From Cytophagaceae bacterium (GTDB taxonomy: Bacteria > Bacteroidota > Bacteroidia > Cytophagales > Spirosomataceae), in NCBI GenBank assembly GCA_947459055.1, contig CANHCG010000164.1:1-5112 (forward strand): a DNA stretch of 5,112 nt, written 5' to 3'. Each line of letters starts with the position of its first letter. The stretch's first letter is position 1. Positions 1,890-2,709 of the stretch are shown one piece after another. A program made the translations under genes and the position numbers. The notes beneath the pieces were generated by a model. It searched no databases, had not been told where the DNA came from, and saw nothing but the letters and a program-made list of their open reading frames with translations.

Positions 1890-2354
1890 TTAAAATAAAG
1901 GTGTATTACGAATTAAACTTTCTTGTAAGGAGATAAAGGTTTCGGTACGTTGAATTCCAGTTACTCGTTGGATTTTATCATGTAAAACTTCACGGAGGTG
2001 TTGGGTATCCCGACAAATAATTTTAGCAAAAATGGAATAAATACCGGTTGTATAGTGAATATTAACCACTTCAGGGATTTTTTCTAATTGCAATGCAACA
2101 TCCTCATACAATGAACTCTTGTCCAAATAAATACCTAAGAATGCGCTGATATCCCAACCAATTTTAGAGTAATCAATTAGCAACTGAGCGCCTCTTACGA
2201 CACCTAAAGATTCCATTTTTTTCATTCGTACGTGAACCGTACCACCTGAAACATCTAGTCGCTGGCCTATTTCCGTATAAGGTAAATTCGCATCTGCCAC
2301 CAAAATTTCCAATATTTTATAGTCAAGAGGATCTAAATCAAATTTCCGTTCCAT
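1890..2354 (-). CDS. Lrp/AsnC family transcriptional regulator
   Basis: This 154-residue protein has the standard length and layout of the Lrp/AsnC (feast/famine) family. The N-terminal winged helix-turn-helix spans about residues 6-60: LDYKILEILV-type first helix, then LPYTEIGQRLDVSGGTVHVR as the HTH, then MKKMESLGVV leading into the wing. An alpha/beta RAM ligand-sensing and oligomerisation domain covers about 68-145, with the family motif at TGIYSIFAKI (103-112). Such proteins form dimers to octamers, bind A/T-rich DNA, and often respond to amino acids and repress their own gene. The regulon cannot be read from sequence. Candidate targets are its own promoter, the divergent tRNA-like gene and the codirectional sufB 80 bases downstream. 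The ATG at 2354 has no Shine-Dalgarno sequence, as expected for Bacteroidota. The family is sure and the specific role is unknown. Confidence 0.95.
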   Translation of the reverse strand: MERKFDLDPLDYKILEILVADANLPYTEIGQRLDVSGGTVHVRMKKMESLGVVRGAQLLIDYSKIGWDISAFLGIYLDKSSLYEDVALQLEKIPEVVNIHYTTGIYSIFAKIICRDTQHLREVLHDKIQRVTGIQRTETFISLQESLIRNTPLF

Positions 2355-2420: not shown

Positions 2421-2441
2421 TATTTTGAATTTATTAAAATA
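2421..2441. promoter_or_regulatory. Candidate operator: inverted repeat between divergent promoters
   Basis: TATTTT at 2421-2426 and AAAATA at 2436-2441 form perfect 6-bp inverted arms with a 9-base A/T-rich spacer. The site overlaps the -33 TTTG of the rightward promoter and lies just upstream of the lrp-type -7 box. An adjacent 10-bp palindrome, AAAATATTTT, spans 2417-2426. Size, A/T content and position fit a binding site for an Lrp/AsnC protein controlling its own promoter. However, A/T-rich DNA gives such repeats by chance, so this is a suggestion only. Confidence 0.25.
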
Positions 2442-2455
2442 CCTATTTATATTTG
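2424..2455 (+). promoter_or_regulatory. Bacteroidota-type promoter for the tRNA-like gene
   Basis: TTTG at 2424-2427 (-33) and TATATTTG at 2448-2455 (-7, perfect TAnnTTTG) are separated by 20 bases, an ideal Bacteroidota sigma-factor arrangement. Transcription should begin around 2462, about 29 bases before the tRNA-like acceptor stem. It is the best promoter match in the window and faces away from the lrp-type gene. It indicates that the RNA gene is actively transcribed. Confidence 0.7.
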
Positions 2456-2490: not shown

Positions 2491-2633
2491 TGTAGGGTGA
2501 TGAAATTGGCAGACGTGCCCTCCTGTCTCGGGGGTGGTGATTCTAGGATAAACGCGGCATAATGGGTTGACCACTAAGTTAGTTCTGTGTCGTGGCTAAC
2601 TACACCTTGGAGGTTCGAATCCTTCTCCTACAG
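2491..2633 (+). tRNA. Atypical tRNA-like gene, anticodon GUC (Asp), class II body with an oversized variable region
   Basis: The sequence folds as a complete cloverleaf. The acceptor is TGTAGGG (2491-2497) with TCCTACA (2626-2632), 7 bp with one G-U, and C2490 with G2633 could make an eighth pair. The linker T8-G9 is followed by a D arm with stem ATG/CGT (2500-2502/2514-2516) and a Leu-like loop AAATTGGCAGA holding A14, G18-G19 and A21. The anticodon arm is CCCTC/GGGGG (2518-2522/2530-2534) with loop CTGTCTC, giving U33, anticodon GUC at 2525-2527 and C38. The T arm is GGAGG/CCTTC (2609-2613/2621-2625) with loop TTCGAAT. All usual invariant bases are present. The discriminator is G2633, and CCA is not encoded. 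The oddity is the 74-base variable region (2535-2608), three or more times the class II norm. It has its own promoter and terminator. It may be an Asp tRNA, a misdecoding tRNA, or a tRNA-shaped regulatory RNA. The structure is seen directly; its function is unknown. Confidence 0.75.
2535..2608 (+). other. Oversized variable region of the tRNA-like RNA
   Basis: These 74 bases separate the anticodon stem from the T stem. T2535 can make the usual 26-44 contact with G2517, and T2608 the usual 15-48 contact. GGTG (2536-2539) pairs with CACC (2603-2606) as a basal variable-arm stem, just where a class II arm would begin. Inside it, AGTTAG (2577-2582) pairs with CTAACT (2596-2601), plus a possible T2583-G2595 wobble, forming a hairpin with an 11-13 base loop. 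A small TGG/CCA hairpin (2563-2565/2571-2573) is possible in the remaining part. The rest looks single-stranded or could join tertiary contacts. No group I intron core or open reading frame is evident. Confidence 0.6.
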
Positions 2634-2678
2634 CTTTTTAATTAATTAGTTTTTAGTTTGTTGATGAAGTGTAATGTT

Positions 2679-2709
2679 AAAAGCAATTCTATTTTAGAAT
2701 TGCTTTTTT
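2679..2709 (+). terminator. Intrinsic terminator after the tRNA-like gene
   Basis: AAAAGCAATTCT (2679-2690) and AGAATTGCTTTT (2696-2707) form a perfect 12-bp stem around the loop ATTTT, with a run of T from 2704 to 2709. It lies about 45 bases past the tRNA-like 3' end and 57 bases before the peroxiredoxin start. It therefore closes the RNA transcription unit and separates it from the next gene. Confidence 0.85.

Follow-up and report, generated by a model that had tools for sequence, protein, structure and literature searches.

A full cloverleaf with a variable region of 74 nt can be read from the sequence at positions 2491-2633 of the window, the 5,112-nt stretch of DNA analysed here, which comes from a draft genome of the Spirosomataceae (G000, 73% complete). 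The locus raises the question of whether such an RNA represents a genuine tRNA architecture and, if so, what task it would serve. The features to which the argument refers are the following.

1890-2354, minus strand: gene for an Lrp/AsnC-family regulator (Pfam AsnC_trans_reg), divergent from the RNA
2424-2455, plus strand: promoter-like pair, TTTG at 2424-2427, then 20 nt, then TATATTTG at 2448-2455; a sigma-70-like match lies at 2425-2453
2491-2633, plus strand: the entire tRNA-like RNA, 143 nt up to G73, CCA not encoded; 168.2 bits with covariance model R1
2491-2497, plus strand: 5' strand of the acceptor stem, pairing with 2626-2632; U1 is 2491 and G2 is 2492
2500-2516, plus strand: D arm, with a covarying stem (2500-2502/2514-2516), G18-G19 at 2508-2509 and nucleotide 20a absent
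2518-2534, plus strand: anticodon arm, with a covarying stem (2518-2522/2530-2534) and the loop CUGUCUC at 2523-2529
2525-2529, plus strand: anticodon loop bases read from the sequence, G34 U35 C36 at 2525-2527, U37 at 2528 and C38 at 2529
2535-2608, plus strand: variable region of 74 nt, from sequence and covariation
2536-2539, plus strand: 5' strand of the basal variable-arm stem, pairing with 2603-2606; double changes at 3 of 4 pairs in 28 relatives and at 4 of 4 in a diverse set
2545-2552, plus strand: AG and GAUAAA strand of the conserved internal loop, with pairs A2545-U2601 and G2546-C2600
2555-2561, plus strand: 5' strand of the inner variable-arm helix, pairing with 2586-2592; double changes at 5 of 7 pairs in the 28 relatives and at 7 of 7 in the diverse set
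2566-2574, plus strand: GTTGACCAC motif of the long forms, 7 of 9 positions invariant in the alignment of 28 relatives; short forms lack it
2596-2599, plus strand: CUAA strand of the conserved internal loop, invariant in the 28 relatives
2609-2625, plus strand: T arm, stem 2609-2613/2621-2625; many family copies have a single-base bulge in the 5' strand
2633, plus strand: discriminator G73, constant across the 83 rows of the diverse alignment
2648-2675, plus strand: downstream motif of 28 nt (A/GGTTTTTAGTTTGTTGATGAAGTGTAAT), located after the RNA and ahead of the terminator
2679-2707, plus strand: intrinsic-terminator-like hairpin, computed

The earlier note on this DNA had described the cloverleaf, a variable region of about 74 nt and a basal variable-arm stem at 2536-2539/2603-2606, and all three were borne out at their exact coordinates, with every stem of the cloverleaf present and double changes at three of the four basal pairs. 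The cloverleaf is accompanied by the invariant bases of the T loop and the D loop. The list of invariant bases in the earlier note stood only in part; the window keeps U33, as listed, but the list omits the pyrimidine U37, and U33 varies in the wider family.

The fold was evaluated in two alignments, one of 28 relatives found by BLAST (A1) and one of 83 diverse copies (79 distinct) drawn from 60 loci and fitted to the structure model (A3). In A1, 97.9% of cells were paired as the named structure predicts, and 15 of its 33 pairs showed double changes; none of 500 shuffles did as well. The corresponding values in A3, the alignment fitted to the structure, were 98.8% of cells and 27 of 33 pairs. 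Double changes were present in all seven helices. The predicted folding energy was −44.8 kcal/mol, and 41 of 200 shuffles were as stable; with a z-score of −0.75, energy alone is not informative on this RNA. The proposal of a new tRNA architecture therefore holds on fold, homologues and covariation, the homologues in relatives by which it was to be checked having been found across genus and family, and the stem covariation in both the 28-relative and the diverse alignment.

Several other accounts of the structure were tried and rejected. A decayed tRNA gene, against which the earlier note had already argued, is ruled out by the covariation and the wide conservation. We infer that the variable region does not hold an intron or group I insertion, given that the insert self-pairs, keeps its motifs and measures about 21-115 nt. 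The RNA is not a tmRNA, as a tag is absent and the anticodon arm is intact, and the triloop anticodon hairpin drawn by RNAalifold was rejected because the copy in phage record LR756504 and others fit the form with 5 bp and a 7-nt loop. By eye, neither a pairing between GACCAC and the variable-arm stem nor one between the 3' motif and the RNA was conserved.

Standard tools passed over the RNA. ARAGORN found no tRNA in the window, a tRNA match was absent from the Rfam search of the window at E≤1, and none of the copies was called by ARAGORN in 29 of 80 loci from named genomes. Nor was the RNA among the 34 matches to RF00005 in a genus mate with a single-contig genome (G012). Of the copies in 35 phage stretches, ARAGORN called only two short forms, L078 and L125, as tRNA-Asp(gtc).

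These short forms bear on the size of the arm, which ranges from about 21 to 115 nt across 225 distinct copies. The usual plan is a 4-bp stem, a GAUAAA/CUAA internal loop closed by a covarying 2-bp helix, and an inner hairpin, to which the arms of long forms add GTTGACCAC. L078 and L125 have an arm of ordinary size that is devoid of the internal loop, and five other phage copies (L074, L105, L111, L142 and L144) have an arm of intermediate size, indicating that arm size forms a range with the giant arm at one extreme.

The promoter and terminator claimed for the RNA correspond to the promoter-like pair at 2424-2455 and the terminator-like hairpin at 2679-2707, which flank it. The window pair is presumably of the TTTG/TAnnTTTG type, which we take to be the Bacteroidota promoter consensus, and a similar promoter-like arrangement lies upstream of the copies in the genus. 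The downstream motif, with at most 2 mismatches, was located 5-118 nt past G73 in 49 of 52 loci (L019-L070), the three others being a contig end, a phage copy and a partial copy. It is less variable than the RNA itself, and a similar-looking motif was seen downstream in Cyclobacterium-type loci. In several genomes a promoter-like TTGAC...TAGTTTTATTTG precedes the motif, which may thus be a separate small RNA. An Lrp/AsnC-type gene was upstream and divergent in 37 of the 91 host loci compared.

By BLAST, 31 of the 38 genomes in the genus carry the RNA, among them all 16 good ones; in the family, 203 of 222 genomes carry it (173 of the 181 good ones), covering 29 of 36 genera. At the level of the order, 371 of 390 genomes matched R1 at E≤0.001, of which the weak matches resemble ordinary tRNAs; by a hand count the best E was below 1e-20 in 286 genomes, weaker in 85, and 19 had no match, in a scan that used strict filters and scored at most 7 candidates per genome. 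Six genomes with a best E of 1e-17 to 3e-19 (G370, G427, G435, G473, G489 and G503) may carry divergent copies. In a sample of the phylum, 31 of 296 genomes had the RNA (R1, E≤1e-18). A longer search pattern returned at least 119 stretches in named genomes, and all 80 among the matches listed also matched R1, some of them cut by an end; we take these 80 loci to be from Bacteroidota. Tandem copies were seen in several of these loci, for example five in Flammeovirga pacifica (L184) and four in Sporocytophaga, and arrays of 3-5 copies with fairly even spacing occur in L184, L220, L207 and L214. In Belliella kenyensis a weak third match (L218, 5160-5292, 50 bits), perhaps decaying, lies beside two good copies. 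The plasmid collection gave no match to the RNA, and among open-licence PMC literature, searched by title and the start of the abstract, no paper on such an RNA was found.

Phages also carry the RNA. A 636-kb phage record, LR756504.1, contains a copy with 77% identity amid ordinary tRNA genes, and a pattern with a fixed loop retrieved 76 viral stretches, 75 of which were confirmed by R1 (the exception is L081) and two of these 75 were cut by a contig end. In many related phages (L074-L145) the RNA lies amid recurrent genes; by their appearance, without a family search, we take them to resemble terminase, PhoH and ThyX. Predicted phages L101, L120, L132 and L133 have their own tmRNA, as called by ARAGORN, some adjoining tRNA arrays. 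The copies in L276, L292, L298, L299 and L303 have enlarged, often palindromic D loops. The tips of the inner-arm hairpin are palindromic in many copies of L071-L146 (for example TTGCAA, TGTGCACA and GCATGC), and with such ends a kissing-loop dimer would be possible. Viral tRNA-like sequences in L282, L294, L310 and L312 have a different D arm and acceptor but contain a GTTGACCAC...CTAAC stretch; perhaps they represent another tRNA-like RNA that shares this module, or a chance resemblance.

U1-A72 was present in 222 and G2-C71 in all of 225 distinct copies, for most of which the loop had been fixed by the search patterns, and acceptor pairs 4-69 to 7-66 were variable. A viral scan that used only letters of the variable arm and the T arm left the loop free; it yielded 79 stretches, 46 of them new, and 31 of these could be parsed into 27 distinct new copies, the 15 unparsed ones including cut copies and false matches. 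The loops of the 27 copies were CUGUCUC (13), UUGUCUC (8) and UCGUCUC (5), with one parsed a base out of register, and all 27 had U1-A72, G2-C71 and G73 despite differing acceptor stems. The same three features were found in each of the 26 parsed loci out of 49 detected with the model (loop CUGUCUC in 25, UUGUCUC in 1). GUCUC at positions 34-38 and G73 were constant in the 83 rows of A3, including 24 rows fetched without fixing the loop (CUGUCUC 15, UUGUCUC 7, UCGUCUC 2). Position 32 varies in the family, and C replaces U33 in 5 of the 27 loop-blind phage copies and in one chromosomal copy, L395. Position 37 was U, never a purine, in 83 of 83 A3 rows, which, together with the loss of U33 in some copies, argues against decoding. 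A single base separates G19 from A21 in 28 of 28 A1 rows, a spacing that later patterns fixed. Position 10 was A in 190, U in 34 and G in 1 of the 225 copies, G being commoner in the loop-blind phage copies.

In passages of PMC9976931, the aspartate identity set is given as G73, G34, U35, C36 and C38, to which a table there adds G10, and G1-C72 and G2-C71 are described as conserved in bacterial tRNA-Asp, G1-C72 being also used by bacterial AspRS. The same passages state that amidation by bacterial GatCAB needs U1-A72 and that G1-C72 and U20a lead to rejection (PMC9976931). The RNA has G73, GUC, C38 and G2-C71 of the aspartate features and lacks G10 and G1-C72; in addition, it agrees with both conditions for amidation, having U1-A72 (without G1-C72) and no U20a. 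The tRNA-Asn anticodon GUU was not found, GUC being present in 83 of 83 A3 rows. In the genus mate G012 every one of the 20 amino acids has an ordinary tRNA, and the RNA comes on top of these; the tRNA-Asp of this genome carries G1-C72, U20a and the loop CUGUCAC, and its tRNA-Asn carries U1-A72, yet also has a base 20a. Ordinary tRNA-Asp was likewise found beside the RNA in phages L112 and L120.

The distribution of the RNA was compared with that of GatB. In the phylum sample (n=296), GatB was present in 31 of 31 genomes with the RNA, and the RNA in 0 of 44 genomes without GatB. Within the class of the window genome, which we take to be Bacteroidia in GTDB terms, the RNA was present in 29 of 33 GatB-positive genomes compared with 0 of 20 GatB-less genomes among those listed (Fisher 5e-11, with kinship ignored). 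The four GatB-positive members lacking the RNA are G232, G573, G681 and G725; in the last two, judged by score, GatB is within the range of the fusions described below. Outside the class, 219 genomes had GatB and 2 had the RNA. The test across all 296 genomes (Fisher 0.007) is weak because the other classes keep GatB and nearly all of their members are without the RNA, and the losses of RNA and GatB partly share descent. In 60 chosen genomes, a normal free GatB was present in 31 of 31 with the RNA (Fisher 0.0007). The 29 chosen RNA-less genomes of the order comprised 20 with only normal free GatB, including G208; five, all members of the family, with only a GatB of 1105-1126 aa (G129 and G131 being RNA-less by BLAST only); G285 with both forms; G303 with fragments; and G314 and G228 with none.

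The long GatB of G217 and G285 (L411 and L412) proved to be GatB joined to a bacterial-type AspRS, a covalent pairing of both enzymes of indirect Asn-tRNA formation. Several records among the best 120 of 1679 relatives (E≤1e-100) bear the name 'bifunctional amidotransferase subunit GatB/aspartate--tRNA ligase AspS'; we take them to be from Spirosomataceae-type and Flavobacteriaceae genera. In 45 chosen genomes, AsnRS was found in 45 and GlnRS in 34. Both synthetases were present in 21 of 28 chosen genomes with the RNA, leaving GatCAB there without another obvious substrate; the remaining seven lacked GlnRS, and in these GatCAB would serve tRNA-Gln too. GlnRS was absent from G232, G573 and G285, which have normal GatB (G285 with the extra fusion) and no RNA, so these genomes need GatCAB for tRNA-Gln; G232 was the one genome scored for GlnRS among the 20 RNA-less genomes with normal GatB, and G573 lies outside the order. 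None of the 45 genomes combined GlnRS and a GatB established as free and complete with absence of the RNA. The draft of G314, in which neither GatB nor GlnRS was found, is probably missing sequence. AsnB scored above the cut-off in 38 of 50 genomes and below it in G012; as it was above the cut-off in 20 of 25 genomes with the RNA, absence of AsnB as the driver was not supported, and the RNA does not simply stand in for AsnB. A survey in passages of PMC4206432 reports 18 genera, including Bacteroidetes, that have AsnRS, GlnRS and GatCAB but no asparagine synthetase.

The constant aspartate identity bases, U1-A72 and the genomic link to GatB lead us to favour, with a confidence somewhat above even, the reading that this conserved RNA with its giant variable arm is a dedicated non-decoding carrier, predicted to be charged by AspRS and amidated by GatCAB to Asn; we infer each enzymatic step, from Asp charging to amidation on the RNA, from sequence features. 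AspRS would read GUC, C38 and G73 and load Asp onto the RNA; the Asp anticodon suits a normal AspRS, so that a relaxed enzyme would be unnecessary. GatCAB would then accept the RNA, which has U1-A72 and is free of the features, G1-C72 and U20a, by which tRNA-Asp is rejected. The Asn-charged product, which would be harmful at Asp codons, may be kept off them by U37 and the variable arm, and in some copies also by the missing U33; Asn would then be freed for AsnRS and metabolism, or passed on. The GAUAAA/CUAA internal loop probably docks a partner in the AspRS-GatCAB complex. Phage copies would boost the same pathway during infection, and a GatB-AspRS fusion would link charging and amidation within one protein. 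We give about an even chance to the wider scenario in which a tRNA left translation to become an asparagine biosynthetic cofactor, phages took it up as an auxiliary metabolic RNA, and lineages with the fused GatB-AspRS dispensed with it. Several observations count against a carrier, among them that G10 occurs in 1 of 225 copies and G1-C72 is missing, both being features of bacterial tRNA-Asp, and that 20 of the 29 chosen RNA-less genomes keep only a normal free GatB. Nor does the carrier reading account for U37, the GTTGACCAC motif or the 3' motif.

The strongest rival holds that the RNA is not a turnover substrate and instead scaffolds or regulates an AspRS-GatCAB complex, its tRNA body and variable arm keeping the pair of enzymes together or sensing Asp, Asn or Gln. 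Lineages with GatB fused to AspRS would no longer need the RNA, and its replacement by the fusion is as compatible with a scaffold as with a carrier; the conserved internal loop of the variable arm and the Lrp/AsnC-type regulator as conserved neighbour also speak for this rival. A pure scaffold, however, could do without U1-A72, G2-C71 and G73, which belong to the least variable parts of the RNA, and we consider this explanation unlikely. Still less credible is that the RNA decodes Asp codons as a class II-format isoacceptor of tRNA-Asp, with the long arm as decoration. The Asp identity bases, the place of the RNA in phage tRNA arrays and the ARAGORN calls of the short phage forms as tRNA-Asp(gtc) are what such an isoacceptor would present, but an ordinary tRNA-Asp is already available in the genus mate and in phages L112 and L120, the constant U37 (83 of 83 A3 rows) and the U33-to-C change in 5 of 27 phage copies and L395 are at odds with decoding, bacterial tRNA-Asp has G1-C72 where the RNA has U1-A72, and the presence of the RNA tracks GatB. 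We give as little weight to a tRNA-like regulatory or decoy RNA unrelated to amidation, for instance an anticodon-nuclease bait or an antisense acting through GUCUC. Phages carry the RNA, some of the 35 stretches scanned contain no other called tRNA, the loop pentamer is constant, and a conserved 3' motif lies ahead of the terminator; U1-A72, G73, G2-C71, the GatB profile and the GatB-AspRS fusions would nevertheless be left unaccounted for. For the tRNA-like regulatory RNA that the earlier note had entertained, nothing specific emerged; what was found favours a part in metabolism together with AspRS and GatCAB, a possibility absent from that note. Charging with serine by SerRS, the RNA then serving as a seryl donor or decoy, is highly improbable, for although the bacterial Ser set in passages of PMC9976931 includes G73, G2-C71 and a large variable region and the RNA follows tRNA-Ser(UGA) in phage stretches L071, L090, L112, L120 and L129, that set has C72 where the RNA has A72 in 222 of 225 copies, contains no anticodon bases and so leaves the conservation of GUCUC purposeless, and gives no reason for tracking GatB.

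The proposed asparagine carrier can be compared with several known systems. With bacterial tRNA-Asp the RNA has G73, G2-C71, G34 U35 C36 and C38 in common, but it has U1-A72 rather than G1-C72, no 20a, U37 rather than a purine, and a variable region of about 21-115 nt against about 5. It resembles the class II tRNAs (Leu, Ser, Tyr) and tRNA-Sec in its class II cloverleaf, with a Leu-like D arm, and differs from them in the internal-loop module of the arm, in an arm of up to about 115 nt and in its identity bases. Outside translation, tRNA-Gly serves in peptidoglycan synthesis and Glu-tRNA in haem synthesis; an aminoacyl-tRNA acting as metabolic donor would be common to these and to the RNA, whose amino acid would itself be made on it. 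The GatB-AspRS fusions likewise couple Asp charging to amidation, as a protein solution to the job predicted for the RNA. The tRNA-Asn of the indirect GatCAB pathway in Bdellovibrio and Deinococcus has in common with the RNA U1-A72 and the predicted order of Asp loading followed by amidation. It differs in that the RNA has GUC instead of GUU, U37 and a giant arm, would need no non-discriminating AspRS, and is not expected to decode. Passages of PMC4206432 describe this pathway as the known instance in which Asn is made on tRNA alongside AsnRS.

If the carrier reading is correct, the RNA would represent a new job for a tRNA, metabolic and not decoding, and a widespread tRNA class that has so far gone unannotated; that ordinary tRNA software misses it marks a gap in tRNA annotation. 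Phages would then possess a metabolic gene that does not encode a protein, and the retention of GatCAB in the many Bacteroidota that have both AsnRS and GlnRS would be explained.
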